Below, piece by piece: positions 10,882 through 22,746 of a stretch of 64,000 nt of DNA. Position 1 is the first letter of the stretch. Each line of letters begins with the position of its first letter. This stretch comes from Planctomycetota bacterium (GTDB lineage: Bacteria > Planctomycetota > MHYJ01 > JACPTZ01): positions 84,287-148,286 of the forward strand of contig JACPTZ010000059.1 in assembly GCA_016192525.1 (NCBI GenBank), given 5' to 3'. Position numbers and translations under genes: made by a program. Under the pieces are notes generated by a model. It saw only the letters and a list, made by a program, of their open reading frames with translations, was not told the origin of the DNA and did no database searches.

Positions 10882-12411
10882 CTAGAAGTCCACCTGGAAC
10901 CGCATCAGGACCGCGTCCTCGGAGTCGATCGATCCGGCCCCGGCGCCGAATCCCACCCTGTCGTCGAACTCGTTTCGGACCCAGTTGAGCGACCAGCGGA
11001 CGTTCGGATTGGGCCACCAGTTCAGGCCGATCGTGTACTCGTCGAGCCCCTCCGTCGAACGGGTTCCGCCCGTCTTCGTGGCGATCCCCATCCCGCCGCC
11101 GGCCGTCGTCTTGAAGATGTCGTCATCCACCCGGAACTGGCCGAACCGGGCGGCGACCTCCCACTGACCCCACCCTCCGTCCTGGAGGAATCGGGCGGCC
11201 GGCTTGCGTCGCCCCATCTGAACGTCCTCGCCGGTCAGCACGCAGAGCGCCTCCACGTACCAGGCGTCGAACTCGATCTCCTGGCTGCGCTGGCTCGCCA
11301 GCGTGGCCACGCGATTCCGGAGTTCGACCTCCGAGGCGGAGTACTCGGCCTGCAGCTTGAACGGCCCCACGGTCCAGACGAGGTCCCCGCCCCAGCGGGT
11401 GCGGCCCCCCCGCGCCTGGGTGGTGGCGGCGGTCTGAAGGAACGCCGTCCCCGTGTTCGGGCTGGAGATGCTCCCGAAGGCGCCTTCCTGGTTCCCTTCG
11501 GTGACGTTCGCCCCGAGCTGGATCCCCTTGATCCACTTGTTGTCGGCGGCGGCGAAGGGCTTCAGCACTATCCGACCCGCGACGTCCTTGTCGTCGTTGT
11601 TGTCGCGGGCGTTGTGTCCGTTGCCGTTGAAGATCCCGATCTCGTACGCGATCCAGGGGTCCCAGGGCTTCCCGGAGATTCCCAGCCCGGTGTCGTATTC
11701 CGGGGCCAGGGTGCTCGCGACGGATCGCTCGACGAAGTCGATGAAGCGGGAGGAGGTGGTGACCTCGAGCGAGTACGGCTCCTTCCATTGACCCGCCCGG
11801 AGGGCGAGTTTCGGGTGCCGGTGCCAGTCGACCCATCCCTCGCGGACGCGGGCGGCGCCGTTCGAATTGGCGAAACCCCCGGCCACGGTCAGGATGTCGT
11901 ACTGCACCTTGTAGCCCCAGTCCTTGTAGAAGCTCCCCTCCGCCTGAAGCCGCGCGCCGCGGTTGAAAAATGTGCTGTCTCCCGGATTCTTCGACGTGAA
12001 GGTCCGGGTCTGGAACTGGAGCCGGCCGCCGAGGTCGAGGGTGAAGTTGCCGTCGGCCGACTTGAGCTTCAGCCCGTCCTTGAAGCACCCCTGGACGGGG
12101 ATGTCCTTTCCGCCGGGATCGGGCAGGTGCTTCGTCTTGCCCTCCACGGACGCGAGGCGCTCATCGAGCGATTTCCTCTCCGTCTCCCGCATCTCCTCCC
12201 CGTCGGGGATCGCCGTTGGAGCGCCGGCCTTGAGGGACCTCCGCAGATCCTCGATGGCCCGGGACTGCTCCTGCAACATCCTCTGCTGTTCCTCGATTCT
12301 CCGCTCGAGGGCCCGGATGCGTTCTTCAGACGGGGTGCCCTCGGCGGGTGCCGACCCGGCGACGCCCAGTGCGAGAAGACAAACTGCCCCAGCCACAAAC
12401 CGGCGCTTCAT
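10882..12411 (-). CDS. OprP/OprO-type phosphate-selective porin
   Basis: Signal peptide, N-terminal coiled coil, barrel ending in ...DAVLMRFQVDF; paralogue of the 12792 gene. Confidence 0.82.
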   Translation of the reverse strand: MKRRFVAGAVCLLALGVAGSAPAEGTPSEERIRALERRIEEQQRMLQEQSRAIEDLRRSLKAGAPTAIPDGEEMRETERKSLDERLASVEGKTKHLPDPGGKDIPVQGCFKDGLKLKSADGNFTLDLGGRLQFQTRTFTSKNPGDSTFFNRGARLQAEGSFYKDWGYKVQYDILTVAGGFANSNGAARVREGWVDWHRHPKLALRAGQWKEPYSLEVTTSSRFIDFVERSVASTLAPEYDTGLGISGKPWDPWIAYEIGIFNGNGHNARDNNDDKDVAGRIVLKPFAAADNKWIKGIQLGANVTEGNQEGAFGSISSPNTGTAFLQTAATTQARGGRTRWGGDLVWTVGPFKLQAEYSASEVELRNRVATLASQRSQEIEFDAWYVEALCVLTGEDVQMGRRKPAARFLQDGGWGQWEVAARFGQFRVDDDIFKTTAGGGMGIATKTGGTRSTEGLDEYTIGLNWWPNPNVRWSLNWVRNEFDDRVGFGAGAGSIDSEDAVLMRFQVDF

Positions 12412-12791: not shown

Positions 12792-14267
12792 ATGAAATTT
12801 GCGTTTGTCTTCGGGACGGCCGTCCTTCTGACCCTCACGGGATCGCTTCGGGGGCAGGACAGCGACGTGGCCCAGCTCCGCCGTGAGATGGAGGAGATGA
12901 AGCGGCAGATGGCGGAGCAGAAGGAGATGCTGGAGCGGCAGAACGCCGTGATTGAGGAGCTTCGGGCGCAGGTCAAGGCGGCGCCCCGGGACGGCGCGGG
13001 CGAGACGCCTGCGCCACGTGGGGCCGGCGTCCCCGCCGGCCCCGGCGCAGGCGAGAAGGCAAAGGCGGATTCGGTCGAGATCACCGCTTCCTTCAAGGAC
13101 GGACTCAAAATGAAGTCCGCCGACGGGAACTTCACGATCGACATCGGCGGACGGATGGAAATCCAGAGCCGCACCTTTCTCTCCGACAACCCCGGCGCCG
13201 ACACCTTCTTCATCCGCGAGGCTCGGATTCAGGCCGAAGGGTCCTTCTACAAGGAGTGGGGCTACAAGGTGCAGTACGACTTCTCCCCCAGCGCCACGGC
13301 CGGGATGAGCACGCCCCGCCTCCGGGAGGGGTTCGTCGAGTGGAGGCGGTATCCGGAGTTCAGCCTCCGCACCGGGCAGTGGAAGGAGCCCTTCTCGCTC
13401 CAGCAGACCACCTCTTCACGCTTCATCGACTTCGTGGAGCGGGCGGTCCCCGACCGGCTCGTCCCCTCCTACGACCTCGGCGTGGCCGCCTACGGGAAGC
13501 CGTGGGACCCGTACCTCTCGTACGAGATCGGGCTCTTCAACGGGAACGGCTTCAACACCACCGATGCGAACGACGACAAGGACCTCGCCGCGCGGCTGCA
13601 GATCCGGCCGTTCGCCGGGGCGGAGTCGAGGTGGGTGAAGGGGCTCATGCTCGGAGGGGCGGTCACCACCGGCAACCAGACCGGTTCGTTCGGCAGCATC
13701 TCCTCTCCCTCGACGAACACCACGTTTCTCACCCTGAACCCCGGGGTGACGGCGCGCGGAGAGCGGACCCGGTGGGGGGGGGAACTGGCCTGGATCGTCG
13801 GGCCGTTCAAACTGCAGGGGGAGTACCTGGCCTCGACGGTCGATCTGAAGCGGTCGTCGATTTCCTCCGAGACCCGTGAGATCGACTTCGACGGCTGGTA
13901 CCTCCAGGGGCTGTACGTCCTGACCGGGGAGGAGGTCCAGATGCAGCGGCGGCGGCCGTCGAGCCGGTTCCTCGAAGAGGGCGGGTGGGGGCAGTGGGAA
14001 GCGGCAGCGAGGTACGCCCGATTCGATTCGGACGCGGAGCTCACCCGAACCGCGGCCTCGGGGGGGAGCGCGCTCGTCTCGCCGACCGGTTCCACGCGGG
14101 GGCTGGACGAGTGGACGATCGGCCTCAACTGGTGGCCCAACCCGAACACGCGGATCAGCCTGGACTGGGTGCGGAACGAATTCGACCGCCCGGTGTCCTT
14201 CGGCGGCGGGGCCGATCCCGAAGACCGCGAGGACGCCCTCCTCATGCGGTTCCAGATCGACTTCTAG
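12792..14267 (+). CDS. OprP/OprO-type phosphate-selective porin (second copy, divergent)
   Basis: Signal peptide, coiled coil, barrel ending EDALLMRFQIDF; strongly similar to the 10882-12411 product. Confidence 0.82.
   Translation: MKFAFVFGTAVLLTLTGSLRGQDSDVAQLRREMEEMKRQMAEQKEMLERQNAVIEELRAQVKAAPRDGAGETPAPRGAGVPAGPGAGEKAKADSVEITASFKDGLKMKSADGNFTIDIGGRMEIQSRTFLSDNPGADTFFIREARIQAEGSFYKEWGYKVQYDFSPSATAGMSTPRLREGFVEWRRYPEFSLRTGQWKEPFSLQQTTSSRFIDFVERAVPDRLVPSYDLGVAAYGKPWDPYLSYEIGLFNGNGFNTTDANDDKDLAARLQIRPFAGAESRWVKGLMLGGAVTTGNQTGSFGSISSPSTNTTFLTLNPGVTARGERTRWGGELAWIVGPFKLQGEYLASTVDLKRSSISSETREIDFDGWYLQGLYVLTGEEVQMQRRRPSSRFLEEGGWGQWEAAARYARFDSDAELTRTAASGGSALVSPTGSTRGLDEWTIGLNWWPNPNTRISLDWVRNEFDRPVSFGGGADPEDREDALLMRFQIDF
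13006..13053. repeat. GGCGTCCCCGCCGGC-type palindrome inside the porin ORF
   Basis: CGCCTGCGCC...GGGGCCGGCG-TCCC-CGCCGGCCCC...GGCGCAGGCG nested arms; encodes PAPRGAGVPAGPGAG. Confidence 0.75.
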
Positions 14268-14535: not shown

Positions 14536-15318
14536 ATGGCCTGGAATTTCGGCGACCGAAAGCCCAAGCCGCCGGAGGATAACGCCGCGCTTATCGCCGC
14601 TTACGCCGCGGCGATGGTGGACGGCGATTCGCCCAAGCGGCGGGCCCTCTACGAGGAGTTGCTGCAGTGCCGGCTCAGGGTCCCCGCGGCCGGTCCCCCG
14701 GAAGGCGATAATCTGAGGCTCCTGACGGTGACGAACGACCGGGGCGAAAAGGGGCTTCCGGTGTTCACGGACGAGAGAGAGTTTCACAAACTCTCCCGGG
14801 AGGGAATCGGGCTCGTCGTCATGGACGCGAAGGCGGTCTTTGAAATGGCGGTCGCCGCGGGCATGAGCGCCGTCATCATCGACCCCGAGGGGATGGGATG
14901 GGCGATAGAACGCACGCAGATGCAGGACCTGGCGGCGGGTCGGATCCCCCGGAACACCTCATTGCCGCTCAATATCATATCCTCAGCCTCGGAGGGGATC
15001 CTGCCGGTATCCCCGCCCCCCGCGAGAATGCTCCTGTTCAAACTGCGACAGGCGGCGGAGGCCCGCGAGCCGATCCGGGGATGCTACCTGTTCATGAGGC
15101 GCGTGGATGAAGGAGACCCCCGACTCTTCTTGGGATTCGACATCGATCAGAGTGGGATTCCGGCCGTTCAGGGGCTCATGGCCGAGATCAACGAAACGGT
15201 CAGCCAGGAGGAACTGGGCGACGTTAATATCATGCCGTTGGACCCTGAAACACTCGAAGAGGTCCGACGCCGCGGGACGGTGGTGTTCGAGAGGACGAAT
15301 CCCCGGGTCCTCTATTGA
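14536..15318 (+). CDS. SseB-domain protein
   Basis: GLPVFTDEREFHKL...VVMDAKAVFEMAVAAGMSAVIIDPEG and C-terminal VQGLMAEINETV; SseB N- and C-terminal-like regions. Confidence 0.65.
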   Translation: MAWNFGDRKPKPPEDNAALIAAYAAAMVDGDSPKRRALYEELLQCRLRVPAAGPPEGDNLRLLTVTNDRGEKGLPVFTDEREFHKLSREGIGLVVMDAKAVFEMAVAAGMSAVIIDPEGMGWAIERTQMQDLAAGRIPRNTSLPLNIISSASEGILPVSPPPARMLLFKLRQAAEAREPIRGCYLFMRRVDEGDPRLFLGFDIDQSGIPAVQGLMAEINETVSQEELGDVNIMPLDPETLEEVRRRGTVVFERTNPRVLY

Positions 15319-15357
15319 AGAGCCGGTCCGCGTCCACCGAGACGGGGCGCCGAGATC

Positions 15358-15513
15358 ATTCGGGTGTGCGAGCCCCAGAAGATGATGATGCTCGCGGATC
15401 GAGTGGAGCTCCTGGAGGCGCAGGATCGCTTCGATCCGCGCTGCAGGATCGAGGCGAATGAGGTCTTCCTGCTTGTTGTCCGCACCGCGGATGGCGGCTT
15501 GGTTCTTCGTTGA
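15358..15513 (+). pseudogene. Detached C-terminal fragment duplicating the end of the 21799-22680 gene
   Basis: IRVCEPQKMMMLADRVELLEAQDRFDPRCRIEANEVFLLVVRTADGGLVLR* vs IRVCESRKMKTLANRVELLEAQHRFDPHCKIGASEMFLLVYRSPDGGQVLR* (36/51 identical by eye). Confidence 0.85.
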
Positions 15514-15699
15514 GGACCCCCGGCGTCGTCCCCACCCGTCGTCGAGGCATCCATGATCCTGAGTGTCTCTTCTTCAAGCCTCAGACTGCCGATCTGCTGT
15601 GCGTGTTGCATGAGGATCCCAGTCGAGGAGGAACTCGCCACCAGTGCCCGGAAGAGCAGGCTCACGCTCAAGGGACACAGAACCTGGCTCCTTACGTCG

Positions 15700-16318
15700 C
15701 CGGACTCAGGCACGACTGGAGCGGCCGATACTCCGACGCTCATCGGGCGTTCGACGACGGTCAGATCGACGAGGCCCAGGACGCCCTGGAGACGCTCAGT
15801 CGAGAGAGGCCCGATTGGCCGCAGGCGCATCATTGGATCGGGCGCTGCCACCGTCAGCGGGGGGAGATGAATGAAGCCGTGGCTTGCTACCGCAAGGCCC
15901 TCAGACTCTTTCGTTCCGATGGGCAGAAGACCCTTCCCCCCTTCGCGGCCGAGATCCTCTCGGACACATGGGCGTTGCCTACAAGAAATGCAGAGACTTC
16001 GACCGCGCCGCGGTCAGCCTCAAGTGGTCGCTCACCCTCAGGCCCAACCATCCGGAAGCCTTGGGGACCGCCGCCGCCCTCCTATCCGGAAATGAGGGCA
16101 TCTTCATGGACGCGCTGACGCGGATGCTGGCCATCGGCAGCCGCGACGAGCTCGCCGAACGGTTGGCCGGTGCCTACGCGCAGGCGATGGGAGCGGATCC
16201 GGATGCGCTGCTCTCCCAGGCTCGAAGAGCGGCCAAGGACTGTGACTTACAGCGCGGCCTGCCCTTCGTCGACCCGCCCCTCACGGCCGAGCGTTTCTTC
16301 GCCGAGATTGACAGGTGA
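15700..16318 (+). pseudogene. Frameshifted TPR-protein remnant
   Basis: RAFDDGQIDEAQDALETLSRERPDWPQAHHWIGRCHRQRGEMNEAVACYRKALRL...FAAEIL in one frame continues as GHMGVAYKKCRDFDRAAVSLKWSLTLRPNHPEAL in another (break near 15957). Confidence 0.7.
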
Positions 16319-16494
16319 AATGAATTCTCCATTCCGTTCCTGACGGGTATGCTGCAACGGATGGCTCGGGAGTACACCGTCCCGATGGCCTTCTCCGAAG
16401 TGGCCCCCCAGGGGCCGGATCAGTCTGAAGATCTGCCCGAAAATCTGGCGACCATGGGAGGCGCCGATGCGGTATTCTAGCCCTGGGAGGCGAC

Positions 16495-18048
16495 ATGGAA
16501 TCTTCCGCCGAACATGATCTCGGCCTTTGTCTCCGCTCCCGGGTCACGCTGCTCGTGGCCGTCTCCGTGGACGAGGATCGCGTTCTCTCCCTCCTTCGCA
16601 CCGTCTGCAAGCGGCTCAACTACTCGCTTTTCACCTGGGACCACGCCGATTTCCTGCAGCAGGCCGGGGGAAAGCCGTCGGCCCCCCCGCCGGCCAAGGA
16701 CGCCCTGAGCGCGCTCGAGATGATCGACAAGATGGCGGGTCCCGCCGTCTTCGTCCTCCGCGACTTCCACCAGTGCTGGGAAAACCAGCCGCGCGTCGTG
16801 CGAAAACTGCGAAACCTCGCCGAACGGCTCAAGTACACGAAGAAGACGATCGTCGTGACGATGCCCTGCATGAAGCTCCCCGAGGAACTGAAAGACGCCG
16901 CGGTCATCTTCGATCTGGCGCCGCCCGACACGGCCCAGCTCGACGATCTCCTCTCCGGGCTGCTCTCCGGGCCGGGGGTCAAGATCCATCTTTCGGCCGA
17001 CGCCCGGAAGCGGCTCATCCGGTCCGCGCTGGGACTCTCGACGAACCAGGCGCAGCGGGTCTTCGCGAAGGCGATCGTGTCGGAAGGGGTCCTCGACGAG
17101 CGGGACATCGATCTCATCGCCCTCGAGAAGAAGCAGATCATCCGCGAATCGGGGGCGCTGGAGTTCTTCATCCCCCGCGAGACCGTGACGGATGTCGGCG
17201 GCCTGGGCGCGCTCAAGGACTGGCTGCATCTCCGCGAGCGGGCGTTCAGCGAGGAGGCGGAGGCGTACGGATTGCCCCCGCCGAAGGGAATCGCCCTCAT
17301 CGGGATCCCCGGGTCCGGGAAATCGCTGTCGGCGAGGATGATCGCGGGACTCTGGCGGCTCCCGCTGCTCCGGCTCGACGTGGGCGCGCTCTTCGGCCAG
17401 TTCGTCGGACAGTCCGAGGAGAACACGCGCCGGGCGCTGCGGCTGGCGGAGACCGTTTCGCCGTGCGTCCTCTGGATCGACGAGATCGAGAAGGCGCTCT
17501 CCGTGGGCCAGGGAGACGGGGGGACCTCGATGAGGGTCCTCGCCACCGTGTTGTCCTGGATGCAGGAGAAGCGGAAGCCGGTCTTCATCGTGGCGACGGC
17601 CAACCGGATCGAACTGATCCCGCCCGAACTGCTCCGCCGCGGTCGCTTCGACGAGATCTTTTTCCTCGACCTGCCCACCGCGGAGGAGCGGCGCGCGATC
17701 TTCGAAGTCCACCTCCGCAAGCGCGGCCGGAAGCCCGGGGCGTTCGATCTCGACGCCCTGAGCGCGGCCTCCGACGGCTACGTGGGGGCGGAGATCGAGC
17801 AGGCCGTGATCGACGCGATGTACGTCGCGTTCAATGACCGGTCGCAACCCGGACGGGAGATTGTGAACCCGGACATCCGTTCCGCCCTGTCCAGACTGGT
17901 CCCGCTCAGCCGCTCGCAGCGGGAGGTGATCAACGCCCTGCGACAGTGGCTGGTGGAGGGTCGCGCGCAGTCCGCCTCGGCGCCGGACGTCCGGGTCTCC
18001 GGCACTCCGTTCGTGAGGATCCCGATCGACCCGGTTCAGGAGTCCTGA
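16495..18048 (+). CDS. Ycf46-like AAA+ ATPase
   Basis: Walker A GIPGSGKS, Walker B CVLWIDEIEKA, NRIELIPPELLRRGRFDEIFFLDLP; N-terminal non-catalytic region as in Ycf46-type proteins. Confidence 0.82.
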   Translation: MESSAEHDLGLCLRSRVTLLVAVSVDEDRVLSLLRTVCKRLNYSLFTWDHADFLQQAGGKPSAPPPAKDALSALEMIDKMAGPAVFVLRDFHQCWENQPRVVRKLRNLAERLKYTKKTIVVTMPCMKLPEELKDAAVIFDLAPPDTAQLDDLLSGLLSGPGVKIHLSADARKRLIRSALGLSTNQAQRVFAKAIVSEGVLDERDIDLIALEKKQIIRESGALEFFIPRETVTDVGGLGALKDWLHLRERAFSEEAEAYGLPPPKGIALIGIPGSGKSLSARMIAGLWRLPLLRLDVGALFGQFVGQSEENTRRALRLAETVSPCVLWIDEIEKALSVGQGDGGTSMRVLATVLSWMQEKRKPVFIVATANRIELIPPELLRRGRFDEIFFLDLPTAEERRAIFEVHLRKRGRKPGAFDLDALSAASDGYVGAEIEQAVIDAMYVAFNDRSQPGREIVNPDIRSALSRLVPLSRSQREVINALRQWLVEGRAQSASAPDVRVSGTPFVRIPIDPVQES

Positions 18049-18050
18049 GC

Positions 18051-18458
18051 ATGTCCGCCTTCACCACCCTCCAGACGGAGTTCGTCTCCGCCGAGCATCT
18101 CCGGCGCGCCCTGACGGATGTGGGGTTCGCCAAGGTTGAGGTCCACAACACTCCGCAGCCGCTCGTCGGATTCATGGGTGACCGGCGGTCGCAGAGCGCT
18201 GAGATCATCATCCGGAGGAGCCACGTCGGCGGCTTCAGCAACGACATCGGGTTCAAGCGCGATCAGAACGGTCGATTCGTCGCCCTGATTTCGGACTATG
18301 ATCGACAGCAGTACGATGCCCCGTGGCTTCGCCGGCTCACTCAGCGCTACGCGTACCACGTCGCGAAGGACACCCTGGAGAGGCAGGAGTTCGAGATCGT
18401 CGAAGAGACCACGCAGGCCGACCAGACCATTCACCTCACGGTGCGTCGGATGGTGTGA
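18051..18458 (+). CDS. DUF1257 / Ycf35-like protein
   Basis: MSAFTTLQTEFVSAEHLRRALTDVGF...VGGFSNDIGFKRDQNGRFVALISDYDR...QRYAYHVAKDTLERQEFEIVEE. Confidence 0.75.
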   Translation: MSAFTTLQTEFVSAEHLRRALTDVGFAKVEVHNTPQPLVGFMGDRRSQSAEIIIRRSHVGGFSNDIGFKRDQNGRFVALISDYDRQQYDAPWLRRLTQRYAYHVAKDTLERQEFEIVEETTQADQTIHLTVRRMV

Positions 18459-18460
18459 CG

Positions 18461-19090
18461 ATGGCGCCCCCTCCAGGACCGCAACAGGTCGGATCCTCTC
18501 CCGCGGACGTCACGCGGGCCTTGGTGAACATTCTCCAGGGGTACGAGGCCTCACGCTCCGTATCGAGCCGAATCTGGATCTATGGCTGGATCGTATTCTT
18601 CCTTCTGGGATGGCGCCAGTGGATCGCCTCATATCTGGAACTGTCGGGCTATGCGCGAGGCGGATACTGGCCGTTTGTCGCCGGCGCCTTCGCGCTCCTG
18701 GGTCTCTGCTTCGTCTGGAAGCGTCTGGCCCTGCGTCGCGCAGTTCGGTCCTTCAACCAACGCTTCCCCGCCGACTCTGCCGATCGCACCCTGGCGATGG
18801 AGATGCTCCCAAGTCTATGCGCGCATTCGATGCGGGGAGCTGTGGACGATCTCCTGCGTGCCGTCGAACGAGAGTCGCCTCCGCTTTCCCCCGCCGCCCC
18901 GCCGTCGCCGTCCCCGATCGACGCCCCGGCGTCCTATCCACAACTCGCCCCGACACCTGTTCCATGGAACCCGGGCTTTCCCCGCGCCTCGAGTCCGGAC
19001 GAGGTGAAGCCCACGCCCATCCCGCTCGAACCCGAGCCGCTCGTGCCGCCGAACCTCCGGGGCCAAAGGTTTAGGGGGAAACGAACATGA
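18461..19090 (+). CDS. Membrane protein with Pro-rich tail; related to the 19979 product
   Basis: Two TM segments then FNQRFPADSADRTLAMEMLPSL...AVDDLLRAVERES. Confidence 0.6.
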   Translation: MAPPPGPQQVGSSPADVTRALVNILQGYEASRSVSSRIWIYGWIVFFLLGWRQWIASYLELSGYARGGYWPFVAGAFALLGLCFVWKRLALRRAVRSFNQRFPADSADRTLAMEMLPSLCAHSMRGAVDDLLRAVERESPPLSPAAPPSPSPIDAPASYPQLAPTPVPWNPGFPRASSPDEVKPTPIPLEPEPLVPPNLRGQRFRGKRT

Positions 19091-19129
19091 CGCGCCGACA
19101 CCGGTCCTGCACGCCAGGAGGTCGCACCC

Positions 19130-19354
19130 ATGTCTGAGATCCAGGAAGTAGACGTCTTCATCGGGCGGGACGGCCGTGTCCGGGTGGAGATCCGCGGAGT
19201 CAAGGGCCCCGCTTGCACGGAGATCACGAAGGAGATGACCGAACTCTTGGGGGGACGGGTCGTGGATCACCAGCGGACCGACGAGTACGATCAGTCTCCG
19301 CTCTCCCAGGACCAGGACGATCGCCCCCGGCTCGGCGGCGATTCCGGGCGCTAG
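19130..19354 (+). CDS. DUF2997-like small protein
   Basis: VDVFIGRDGRVRVEIRGVKGPACTEITKEMTELLGG; small, next to DUF1257/Ycf46. Confidence 0.7.
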   Translation: MSEIQEVDVFIGRDGRVRVEIRGVKGPACTEITKEMTELLGGRVVDHQRTDEYDQSPLSQDQDDRPRLGGDSGR

Positions 19355-19381
19355 GCAGGGAGCCACGCGGAAAATCGGCAC

Positions 19382-19960
19382 ATGAGCGACGATCCGACGC
19401 TGAACCTTCACGCCATCCTGCCGCGGAGTCGCGCGAACGGCCCCGGGCTTCGCACCGTCATCTGGTTCCAGGGCTGCACCCTCGGCTGTCCGGGGTGCTT
19501 CAATCCGGAAACGCACTCCGCCGAACCCCGAAACGTCGTCTCCAGTAAGTCGCTGCTCTCCGACGTGGTGCGCGACGCGGCCGGAATCGAGGGGGTCACG
19601 ATCAGCGGGGGGGAACCGCTCCAGCAAGCGGAGGGGCTCCTGAGTCTGCTCGCCGGGATTCGGCGCTCGACCCCTCTGTCGATTATCCTCTTCTCGGGGT
19701 ATCGCCGGTTCGAGATCGAACTCCTCCCGCTGGGACCGCAGATCCTGGAGCATCTTGATGTCCTCATCGATGGTCGCTATGTCGAGAGGCGGCATCTCGG
19801 GTCAGGCCTGCGGGGCTCGTCGAATCAGATCATCCATCTCCTCACGTCGCGGTACACGGTGGGCGATCTCCTCCGAACTCCCGAGGGCGAGATTCTCATC
19901 GATCCCGCAGGGAAGCTGACGCTGAGCGGGGTGTGCGCCCCGCGGATGGAAGCCGTCTGA
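19382..19960 (+). CDS. 4Fe-4S single-cluster radical SAM protein (activase-like)
   Basis: FQGCTLGCPGCFNPETH (CxxxCxxC), TISGGEPLQQ. Confidence 0.82.
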   Translation: MSDDPTLNLHAILPRSRANGPGLRTVIWFQGCTLGCPGCFNPETHSAEPRNVVSSKSLLSDVVRDAAGIEGVTISGGEPLQQAEGLLSLLAGIRRSTPLSIILFSGYRRFEIELLPLGPQILEHLDVLIDGRYVERRHLGSGLRGSSNQIIHLLTSRYTVGDLLRTPEGEILIDPAGKLTLSGVCAPRMEAV

Positions 19961-19978
19961 TGGAGCGGAGAGACCTGT

Positions 19979-20725
19979 ATGGCGCCTCCGGCCGAATCCA
20001 CCGGCGGAACACCCGAGGCCACCCATGCGGTTCGACAGATTCTCACCACGTGGGAGAAAAGCGTCGCGCGTTTGGACTCTGGTTGTGGCGTAGGCTGCTG
20101 GTGTCTCTGCCTCGGCGTCGCAGTGGCGGCCTATGGATCCCTGTGCGGGCATTCCCCGTGGCCAACGCTGTTCATCGCCGGCGCATGTGCTGTCCCCCTG
20201 GGCCTTCTGGCGAACTGGGACAATTCCAGACGCCGCAGTTCGGCCACGACTCTGGCAAGGTCTGCCTTCGAGAAGGCGTTTCCCGCGGGGACAGAGGGGA
20301 GAATCAACGCGCTCACGGCGATGGAGAGTCTCGCCGCGCCCCAGAACCAGGAGTTGGTGTCAGAGCTGATTCGCGTATTCGGTCCGTCCCCGTCTCCGGG
20401 GGGGCAGCCTGTTCACCAGGCCTTGGCCCAGATCCCGGGGACGAATGCGATCCCCCCGGCTTCGCCTCCGATGGCCGCGGAGCCGCCTGCCGTCGAGAGT
20501 GCAGGCTGGGCCGGGTCGCGGTCAGAGTCCGTCGTCTACGAGTTCATTCCCCTCGAGCCTGAAGCGCCTGCGGAGCAGGGCGCGGCGCCGGTGGAGAATC
20601 GAGGGCCGGCACGAGCGCGCGAGATGCGGATCCGATGCCCGACCTGCCGCTCCATCGCGACCATCCCGGAGGGGACGCGGGAGACGCTCTGCGCCGTGTG
20701 TCATAGCCGCTTGCGCGCGCCGTAA
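19979..20725 (+). CDS. Membrane protein with C-terminal zinc ribbon
   Basis: Two TM segments; FEKAFPAGTEGRINALTAMESLA; RCPTCRSIATIPEGTRETLCAVCHSRL. Confidence 0.6.
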   Translation: MAPPAESTGGTPEATHAVRQILTTWEKSVARLDSGCGVGCWCLCLGVAVAAYGSLCGHSPWPTLFIAGACAVPLGLLANWDNSRRRSSATTLARSAFEKAFPAGTEGRINALTAMESLAAPQNQELVSELIRVFGPSPSPGGQPVHQALAQIPGTNAIPPASPPMAAEPPAVESAGWAGSRSESVVYEFIPLEPEAPAEQGAAPVENRGPARAREMRIRCPTCRSIATIPEGTRETLCAVCHSRLRAP

Positions 20726-20749
20726 AGTTGCCTGGTCAGGAGGACAGCC

Positions 20750-21745
20750 ATGAATGACGCCGGATCACGGGTTCTGGTGATCGCAAGGGGGAAGACCCCG
20801 GAAGTGCTGGAGGCCCATGCCGAAGATGCCGCCCTCTACGAGGGATTCTACCCAGGCGCCGAAAGACGTGTCGTCGCCGATGGAGAGGAGTTGCGTTCCG
20901 TGATTCGGGCCGGCCGCCACGATATCGTCCATCTTCTGGGGGACTTCAAGGAGGACGGCTCCTTACGCGTCGGGCCCGGCACCCGAATTCCTCTCGCGGA
21001 TCTCCTGGCCCTCTGTGAAGACGCCGGCGTGAAGCTGCTGTGGCTCGCGAACGTCCAGTGGTTTGACCGGGGCGATGAGCTTCCGCGCGACTCGGCCATG
21101 CATCTGATCATCACCCACAGCCGAAACGAGTACTTCAGTTCTTTCCTGAGGAGCGTGCTCGAACGAATGTCCCAAGGGGTTCCGCTGCCCAAGGCGCTCA
21201 CGGAAACCGCACCCGAGGCGAGCGGCCGTCCGCCGAAGGGATTCCCCGGGATCCTCGCGACAGGGAGTCCCCGCCAACAGGAGGTCTTTCTGCCGGGAGG
21301 GGAGGCGAGAGGTCTCGTCCGCAAACCGATCGAGAGCGGTCGCGAGATCGAGGAGGAAGAGGCGGAGGATGCGCTGACCCAGCTCGACTCGGCGTTCGAC
21401 CGCGCGCGAGCGGACCCCGAGAATCCGGAGCAGGTGCAGGCCTACTACACGCTCCTGTTCAATTCCCTGGTGTATGTTCCCACGGCCGGCCCCAGCAACA
21501 CCGGACCCGCAGGGGAGGTGGGGCTTCGTCCCCTCGTCCTCGATCCCGGGGGAACTCCGTGCGTGGCGATGTTCGATCGGCTGACTCGTCTTGCCGCCTG
21601 GGCGAAGCGGGAGGTCCCGTTCGCCGCCATGAAGGCGGGCGAGGTCATCATGGGGCTCGATCCCAAACTCGGCATCGCCCTGAACCTGGGAACCGACCAC
21701 TTCACGGAGATCCAAGCCGATGAGCTGGCCGCCAGAGGAAGTTGA
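20750..21745 (+). CDS. Degenerate CHAT-like domain fused to C-terminal SseB-like domain
   Basis: DIVHLLGDFKEDGSLRVGPGTRIPLADLLALCEDAGVKLLWLANVQWFD resembles CHAT; YYTLLFNSLVYVP...PCVAMFDRLTRLAAW...LNLGTDHFTEI resembles SseB. Confidence 0.6.
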   Translation: MNDAGSRVLVIARGKTPEVLEAHAEDAALYEGFYPGAERRVVADGEELRSVIRAGRHDIVHLLGDFKEDGSLRVGPGTRIPLADLLALCEDAGVKLLWLANVQWFDRGDELPRDSAMHLIITHSRNEYFSSFLRSVLERMSQGVPLPKALTETAPEASGRPPKGFPGILATGSPRQQEVFLPGGEARGLVRKPIESGREIEEEEAEDALTQLDSAFDRARADPENPEQVQAYYTLLFNSLVYVPTAGPSNTGPAGEVGLRPLVLDPGGTPCVAMFDRLTRLAAWAKREVPFAAMKAGEVIMGLDPKLGIALNLGTDHFTEIQADELAARGS

Positions 21746-21798
21746 TCTCTCGCACGCCGAGGACCTGAGACTGGAGTTCATTGGAAGGTGTCCCCGCC

Positions 21799-22680
21799 AT
21801 GAAATGCCCTCAGTGTGGAACGACTCGTCCGGATTGGGTGAAGAGATGCGGAAAGTGCGATCCCCCCAGGGACGCTCCTCAGGCCGGCGTCTCAAGTCCG
21901 GCGAGAGACTACCGGAAGGAGCTGTCGGACCTTTTCGGCACGGGTCGCGAACAGGCGATCGAGCAGACTGTCGCGGAGGCGTTCAAGGACCCCGGCGTTC
22001 CGGAGTCGCTCCTCGCCTATTGCTCGGCGATCACCTATGAGGCGCGATGCACCAACTCGCCGACATTCCTCAGGGCCTTCATCGACAGGTATCCGGAATC
22101 GGCGCACCCCATTCGGGTCTATCTCGCGGATGTATTCGCCTACCTGCGTGATGCCGACAGTGCGACGGACGGCGCCCGCGTCTATCTCAGGCAAGCGTGG
22201 CCCACTATTCGTGATCCCGATTTCCAGCGGATCACACACGAGCCGAACATGCGGCGATTGATCGCCAATGGGGTCGCCCAGGCCCTCCTCCTGACCACGC
22301 TCGCCTACACGGAGGTGGGGGCCAGGAGCTACAGTCTGCGGGTGCTCGACCGGCATCGCGAACTGCTGGGGCACGAGATATGGACCCGCGTGGATGAGTG
22401 CTGGAAGCAGGCATTCGAGAGGGAATACGCCCGTCTGAAGGAGGAACTCCGGGGCTGGGGCGCCGGGGCCCAGGACACGGCGTGGGAGGAGTTCTTCTCG
22501 AAAGGGGATCGGGGCCCCGAGCTCATTCGGGTCTGCGAGTCGCGGAAGATGAAGACACTCGCGAATCGCGTCGAGCTCCTGGAGGCGCAGCACCGCTTCG
22601 ATCCGCACTGCAAGATCGGCGCGAGTGAGATGTTCCTCCTCGTCTACCGCTCCCCGGACGGCGGCCAGGTCCTGCGCTGA
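21799..22680 (+). CDS. Zinc-ribbon protein with helical-repeat-like region
   Basis: MKCPQCGTTRPDWVKRCGKC; ATG 21799 (ORF track uses TTG 21781). Confidence 0.6.
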   Translation: MKCPQCGTTRPDWVKRCGKCDPPRDAPQAGVSSPARDYRKELSDLFGTGREQAIEQTVAEAFKDPGVPESLLAYCSAITYEARCTNSPTFLRAFIDRYPESAHPIRVYLADVFAYLRDADSATDGARVYLRQAWPTIRDPDFQRITHEPNMRRLIANGVAQALLLTTLAYTEVGARSYSLRVLDRHRELLGHEIWTRVDECWKQAFEREYARLKEELRGWGAGAQDTAWEEFFSKGDRGPELIRVCESRKMKTLANRVELLEAQHRFDPHCKIGASEMFLLVYRSPDGGQVLR

Positions 22681-22746
22681 GGAGGGAACCGGGGAATGTC
22701 GCCGCCATTCCATTTCGAACGCCGCGGCTCACAGGAAGAGGTGATG

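Follow-up and report, generated by a model that had tools for sequence, protein, structure and literature searches.

What might an ATP-driven protein remodeller do in partnership with a radical S-adenosylmethionine (SAM) enzyme? This question is raised by a compact gene cluster in a 64,000-nucleotide (nt) stretch, here called the window, of contig JACPTZ010000059.1 from a bacterium of the phylum Planctomycetota. Between positions 16495 and 22680, eight genes on the plus strand follow one another with gaps of 2, 2, 39, 27, 18, 24 and 35 nt, counted from an AAA+ ATPase gene to the last gene, and this spacing of 2-39 nt makes a single operon likely. Three of the encoded proteins, the AAA+ ATPase, DUF1257 (the Ycf35 family) and DUF2997, are widespread in cyanobacteria, plastids, cyanophages and many bacteria and archaea, where they have no known role. 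Their link to a dedicated radical SAM protein and to swappable partners makes them a testable system, for which a modification at or near the invariant cysteine of DUF2997 is predicted. Our best reading, to which we assign a probability of about 0.42, is an ATP-driven remodeller whose DUF2997 component is modified by the radical SAM protein.

A same-strand cluster of eight genes had been proposed in a preliminary description of this DNA, and every open reading frame (ORF) was found where it had been placed, with AAA, DUF1257, DUF2997, Fer4_12/Radical_SAM and SseB matches above the Pfam gathering scores. The first gene (16495-18048) encodes an AAA+ ATPase of 517 aa, recognized by Pfam AAA (5e-31), by AAA_lid_3 and by its motifs. 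Its C-terminal AAA domain is intact, with Walker A (GIPGSGKS, 270), Walker B (VLWIDE, 325) and an Arg-finger region (RRGRF, 381). The N-terminal half has no Walker motifs and gives a weak profile match to the C-terminal half in the lid region only (P=0.0013, probability 18%); judging from these sequence features, it is possibly a degenerate, inactive AAA domain. The nearest solved proteins are Cdc48/p97, and the nearest annotated ones are cyanobacterial plasmid proteins named 'AAA family ATPase' (57-59% identity). The second gene (18051-18458) encodes a DUF1257 protein of 135 aa with an alpha/beta fold (PF06868, 2e-16; 60.6 bits against a gathering score of 22.2). No solved relative was found by sequence at the thresholds used, nor by a Foldseek search of its AlphaFold model (pLDDT 94) against the PDB at E≤0.001; the sole confident fold match of the model is a viral protein (TM score 0.71).

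Two further genes of the operon encode DUF2997 (19130-19354), a protein of 74 aa with a predicted beta-beta-alpha-beta topology (PF11211, 4e-13; 49.4 bits against a gathering score of 24.1), and the radical SAM protein (19382-19960; 192 aa; Fer4_12 5e-30, Radical_SAM 6e-8). The latter is of the type of NrdG and the activase of pyruvate formate-lyase (PFL), lacks a SPASM domain and carries the CX3CX2C motif as C32-C36-C39 as well as a SAM-binding GGEP at 76. The PFL-activase of E. coli is its best solved relative, and its NrdG match (1e-30) reaches 106 bits, which is under the family cut-off of 126.

Does this combination recur? With a profile built from four homologues, we surveyed one genome per species from about 85,000 species for the radical SAM protein and inspected the best 80 loci with flanks of up to 10 kb; partner genes were called with iteratively built profiles, and many loci were cut by contig ends. 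At least one core partner (AAA+, DUF1257 or DUF2997) was present at 62 of these 80 loci, DUF2997 at 51 and all four genes at 38. DUF2997 usually lies next to the radical SAM gene at linked loci. Loci where the radical SAM gene is linked to DUF1257, DUF2997 or both represent 13 or more phyla, among them the archaeal Nanobdellota and Thermoplasmatota. For instance, the RefSeq annotation of plasmid pPPM1a of Paenibacillus polymyxa M1 lists an AAA protein, DUF1257, DUF2997 and a 4Fe-4S protein in a row, followed by two hypothetical proteins that are membrane proteins by sequence; such plasmid-borne four-gene copies make the system accessible in culture. The tree of the radical SAM proteins departs from the species tree, and the sequence from the window groups with those of Armatimonadota, Thermodesulfobacteriota and Gammaproteobacteria. 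The AAA+/DUF1257/DUF2997/radical SAM set is therefore a genuine system that is conserved and modular and, in part, mobile. It apparently is also undescribed, as had been proposed: the literature searched, which mostly excluded subscription papers, holds no description of this combination, and the claim of novelty is provisional.

In other genomes the radical SAM gene is the less constant member. DUF1257 was detected in 20 of 246 Planctomycetota genomes, at every locus with an adjacent DUF2997 gene and at most with AAA+, and only four of these loci, the window included, have a radical SAM gene within the flanks examined. Similarly, 113 Myxococcota genomes yielded 29 DUF2997 loci, nearly all with adjacent AAA+ and/or DUF1257 and three with a radical SAM gene. 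AAA+-DUF1257-DUF2997 is therefore the more general core, which the radical SAM protein joins in a subset. Even unlinked genes tend to share genomes. Where a radical SAM locus lacks both DUF1257 and DUF2997, 16 of 23 tested genomes encode DUF2997 elsewhere, compared with a background rate of 26/113 in Myxococcota (binomial 3e-6, uncorrected for relatedness), and within Myxococcota the radical SAM protein (E≤1e-30) and DUF2997 co-occur with an odds ratio of 15 (Fisher P=7e-5). Unlinked pairs of a radical SAM protein and DUF1257 in several Planctomycetota genomes were discounted, most of these radical SAM proteins belonging to a CCNPHxW subfamily found beside a different protein.

What would the radical SAM protein act on? 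The glycyl-radical domain PF01228 was not found in seven of eight genomes that bear the radical SAM protein, the host among the seven, and NrdD (PF13597) was found in none of the eight, the host included. With its usual glycyl-radical partners absent from the host, the enzyme would need a non-canonical protein substrate, and DUF2997 is the nearest candidate. DUF2997 carries a G23-x2-G26-x2-C29 segment; G15, G26 and C29 (numbering of the window protein) are invariant across 74 aligned sequences, and the cysteine is kept in 110 of 110 non-redundant sequences. In a model of low to moderate confidence (mean pLDDT 64), this cysteine lies in the opening turn of the helix, a position where cysteines are commonly reactive; a Foldseek search with the model against the PDB gave no match at E≤0.001, and the model itself is too weak for interpretation.

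On this basis, we propose that the core is a Cdc48-like AAA+ remodeller, probably with one inactive and one active AAA half, that works together with DUF1257 and DUF2997. The radical SAM protein, equipped with a single [4Fe-4S] cluster and SAM, would most likely modify DUF2997 at or near the G-x2-G-x2-Cys segment, and this modification might switch or chemically complete the remodeller in a redox-dependent manner. That the iron-sulfur neighbour of DUF2997-DUF1257 in cyanobacteria is a ferredoxin likewise points to redox chemistry. Peptide modification, which the preliminary description had considered as an activity of the cluster, is plausible. The clients of the remodeller would vary by lineage and would here be a pair of membrane proteins.

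Several observations weigh against this proposal. Many DUF2997 loci have no radical SAM gene nearby (about 26 of the 29 in Myxococcota), 17 of 26 DUF2997-positive Myxococcota genomes lack a radical SAM match at 1e-20, and DUF2997 was not found in seven of the 23 genomes with an unlinked radical SAM gene. The cysteine is equally invariant in DUF2997 proteins that have no adjacent radical SAM protein, including the copy of cyanophage P-SSM2, and thus cannot serve the radical SAM protein alone. Furthermore, the metagenome-assembled genome (MAG) of the host is 82% complete, so that glycyl-radical enzymes scored as absent could be missing from the assembly. Given its conservation without an adjacent radical SAM protein, the cysteine may have a role of its own in the core, the radical SAM protein modifying it or a nearby residue in a subset of systems. 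In the Prochlorococcus phage P-SSM2 (L126; 5802-6381), genes 178 and 179, annotated as hypothetical, are overlapping DUF2997 and DUF1257 genes that adjoin phage replication genes.

A more far-reaching version holds that DUF2997 is a new small protein cofactor or carrier of about 70 residues. Its invariant Cys/Gly segment would undergo radical modification by an activase of its own, and DUF2997 would then, together with DUF1257, arm the Cdc48-like remodeller. We regard this version as unlikely. If true, it would represent a new coupling of radical chemistry to ATP-driven protein remodelling in bacteria and archaea, related to plastid Ycf35.

The third and sixth genes of the operon encode the presumed clients. 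TM1 (18461-19090; 209 aa) comprises a helical segment, a Pro-rich linker and a C-terminal IPLEPE, and TM2 (19979-20725; 248 aa) carries FIPLEPE and a C-terminal zinc ribbon. Both belong to a new membrane protein family with a C-terminal PLEPE/PLDP motif, whose other members (L027/L064, L045, L264) accompany this core in three further lineages. When hidden Markov models were built with one of the five family members left out at a time, the omitted member was in each case the best match outside the training set among 20,894 ORFs (E between 7e-10 and 0.05). The family was recovered solely by such motif- and profile-based comparison; with plain phmmer searches, neither TM1 and TM2 nor the three other accessory proteins described below gave a relative at any other locus. 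At L264, the membrane protein gene directly follows and overlaps an AAA+ gene 62% identical to that of the window, and its product shares the C-terminal zinc ribbon with TM2. The two membrane proteins that follow the radical SAM protein in P. polymyxa M1 are without PLEPE and were not counted with the TM family. The PLEPE-like tag would, in our proposal, dock TM1 and TM2 on the core. Recurrence of the radical SAM gene and of a membrane partner with AAA+/DUF1257/DUF2997 in other genomes is thus established, in line with the preliminary expectation of conserved co-occurrence.

Elsewhere, other modules take the accessory position. Hsp70 genes occur at 34 loci, genes for HEAT/WD repeat proteins at 34 and GrpE at 12; in some cases (L052, L214), Hsp70/HEAT-WD-type sets are accompanied by genes for a candidate DGR-type reverse transcriptase and FGE-sulfatase proteins. 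A Hydrogenedentota MAG (L217) contains three FGE-sulfatase genes among genes for AAA+, two DUF1257 proteins, DUF2997, Hsp70, GrpE and HEAT/WD proteins. Planctomycetota triads without a radical SAM gene come with a pentapeptide-repeat protein or with zinc-ribbon/TPR/PilT-like sets. A variant with an MkoA-like SF1 helicase is common to Myxococcota, a Rhizobiaceae MAG, Bacteroidales and a Methanomassiliicoccaceae archaeon; the helicase of L111/L122 matches MkoA of the Mokosh system at 1e-74. Six loci (L111, L122, L100, L108, L149, L152) keep a set of AAA+, an SF1 helicase resembling MkoA, two proteins that match no Pfam family, DUF2997, DUF1257 and radical SAM protein, and this set is a good candidate for a defence system. 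On plasmid pTRESU01 of Treponema succinifaciens (L278; 6333-8488), a radical SAM gene directly followed by a related AAA+ gene lies inside a contractile-injection-system cluster (VgrG/Pvc8, baseplate V).

The last two genes of the operon are of a different nature. The seventh (20750-21745) encodes a lineage-specific protein of 331 aa that had been described as a fusion of a degenerate CHAT-like domain and SseB. Its C-terminal half is indeed SseB by Pfam (3.5e-9), whereas the CHAT label comes from resemblance by eye: Pfam gave no CHAT match in this protein, and the catalytic positions are lost, with HLLGD in place of HxxGH and ANVQW in place of NxCxS. A full-length relative of the fusion was not detected in the 246 genomes of the phylum. 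The eighth gene (21781-22680, with a TTG start at 21781 or an ATG at 21799) codes for a helical protein of 299 aa with a CxxC...CxxC zinc ribbon; the zinc ribbons of the cluster proteins score below threshold in Pfam, yet their CxxC pairs are present. A further SseB protein of 260 aa (14536-15318, plus strand; SseB 3e-12, SseB_C 9e-5), which had been mentioned together with the cluster, exists as predicted; its membership in the operon is uncertain, and we left it out because it lies 1,176 nt away, with a TPR gene broken by a frameshift and a repeat of 174 bp in between. The CHAT-SseB fusion, the zinc-ribbon protein and the upstream SseB protein were not found at any other core locus examined. 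Their status as conserved partners is therefore unsupported, and they may be local additions, the first two possibly acting as sensors.

The repeat (15343-15516, plus strand) is a direct copy, 80% identical, of 22510-22683 and thus a remnant of the zinc-ribbon gene, whose 3' end it repeats; its position behind the SseB gene suggests a past tandem duplication or rearrangement. Two overlapping reading frames at 15510-16318, between the SseB gene and the operon, make up the TPR-repeat gene, which is apparently broken by a frameshift. Upstream, a divergent pair of porin-like genes (10882-12085 and 13091-14267) in opposite orientation shares about 71% DNA identity. The surroundings of the operon in the window, with genes for phosphate transport, porins and type II secretion, are those of ordinary housekeeping. 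The contig measures 159.7 kb, and the host MAG comprises 4.18 Mb with 0.6% contamination.

Conflict or defence functions, which the preliminary description had suggested along with a stress response, deserve consideration, as the core might transmit an immune signal, its variable partners serving as sensors and effectors, in a system where the membrane proteins damage the membrane upon activation and the inactive CHAT-SseB protein senses or restrains. The patchy distribution in the phylum, plasmid carriage in Bacillus, Paenibacillus and cyanobacteria, a radical SAM tree that ignores species boundaries and the variants with reverse transcriptase and FGE-sulfatase genes, with the MkoA-like helicase or with nearby RloB and toxin genes are all in favour of it. 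In contrast, PADLOC returned no specific match for the cluster proteins, merely a general AAA similarity to IetA and a marginal viperin match; the window context is that of housekeeping, cyanobacteria retain DUF2997/DUF1257 next to ferredoxin, and a cyanophage has both. We consider this explanation less likely than our proposal, yet a serious rival. Somewhat less probable still is a housekeeping role in redox or stress quality control, in which a chaperone-like remodeller guards Fe-S or membrane complexes or helps to assemble them, possibly like plastid and cyanobacterial Ycf35/Ycf46, and the radical SAM protein or ferredoxin provides redox control only. The frequent Hsp70 and GrpE neighbours fit such a role, as do the DUF2997-DUF1257-ferredoxin order on an Oscillatoriales contig (L220), where the ferredoxin was confirmed, a DUF2997-ycf35-fed7 cluster in Synechocystis (PMC4284462) and a presence or loss of ycf35/ycf46 in red algal plastids that is related to habitat, with iron limitation suggested as a factor (PMC5940233). 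Very patchy occurrence outside cyanobacteria, plasmid carriage and association with reverse transcriptase and a Mokosh-like helicase speak against it, and a radical SAM protein is no electron carrier.

Two narrower explanations were rejected. That the radical SAM protein is an ordinary activase for anaerobic ribonucleotide reductase or PFL, adjacent by chance, would agree with NrdG and PFL-activase being its best named families; given the sub-threshold NrdG score, the lack of NrdD and of glycyl-radical domains reported above and a linkage that recurs across loci, we regard it as highly improbable. Even less credible is membership in the FtsH-ternary systems (Kaur et al. 2020), whose plan of an AAA protein with an inactive and an active half, a radical SAM enzyme and a small partner is similar. 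Neither MoxR nor vWA was found among the scanned proteins of the cluster and the flanking window, and the radical SAM proteins assigned to these systems by neighbourhood (L155, L160) cluster apart in a well-defined group of their own (support 99/91). Both belong to the CCNPHxW subfamily; L155 lies beside a protein with MSQSYVIRVSASVKE, and L160 is accompanied by MoxR-like, AAA and 99-aa proteins in an FtsH-ternary-like arrangement.

Comparison with known systems places the remodeller proposed here, with its modified DUF2997, in a wider frame. AAA+-centred operons with a radical SAM enzyme and a small partner are already known in outline. The closest relative in this respect is the simpler type of FtsH ternary (MoxR-vWA) conflict system, which includes a radical SAM enzyme and a peptide (PMC7159879). 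Inactive and active AAA halves (the N-terminal half of our ATPase only possibly being inactive), a standalone radical SAM protein and a small separate protein regarded as the target of modification are common to both, as is a range that includes Planctomycetes, Actinobacteria and Deltaproteobacteria (PMC7159879). In contrast, the small partner of our operon is DUF2997 together with DUF1257, and the core is also plasmid-borne and present in archaea. As the FtsH-ternary type needs MoxR and vWA, the operon is set apart from this sole described group. With NrdG and PFL-activase, the radical SAM protein shares the build of a short single-cluster CX3CX2C enzyme, whereas its recurrent partner is DUF2997 in a host where the known glycyl-radical partners are absent. 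Likeness to Mokosh (MkoA) is confined to the helicase variant (L111, L122); none is seen in the window, and the other partners differ. The cyanobacterial and plastid ycf46/ycf35/DUF2997 set differs in having a ferredoxin instead of a radical SAM protein, in an AAA gene that is not adjacent in the contig examined and in that no PLEPE membrane proteins were seen. It resembles the operon in the adjacency of DUF1257 and DUF2997 with an Fe-S protein next door, and the system presented here may help to explain why ycf35 has been retained in some algae.

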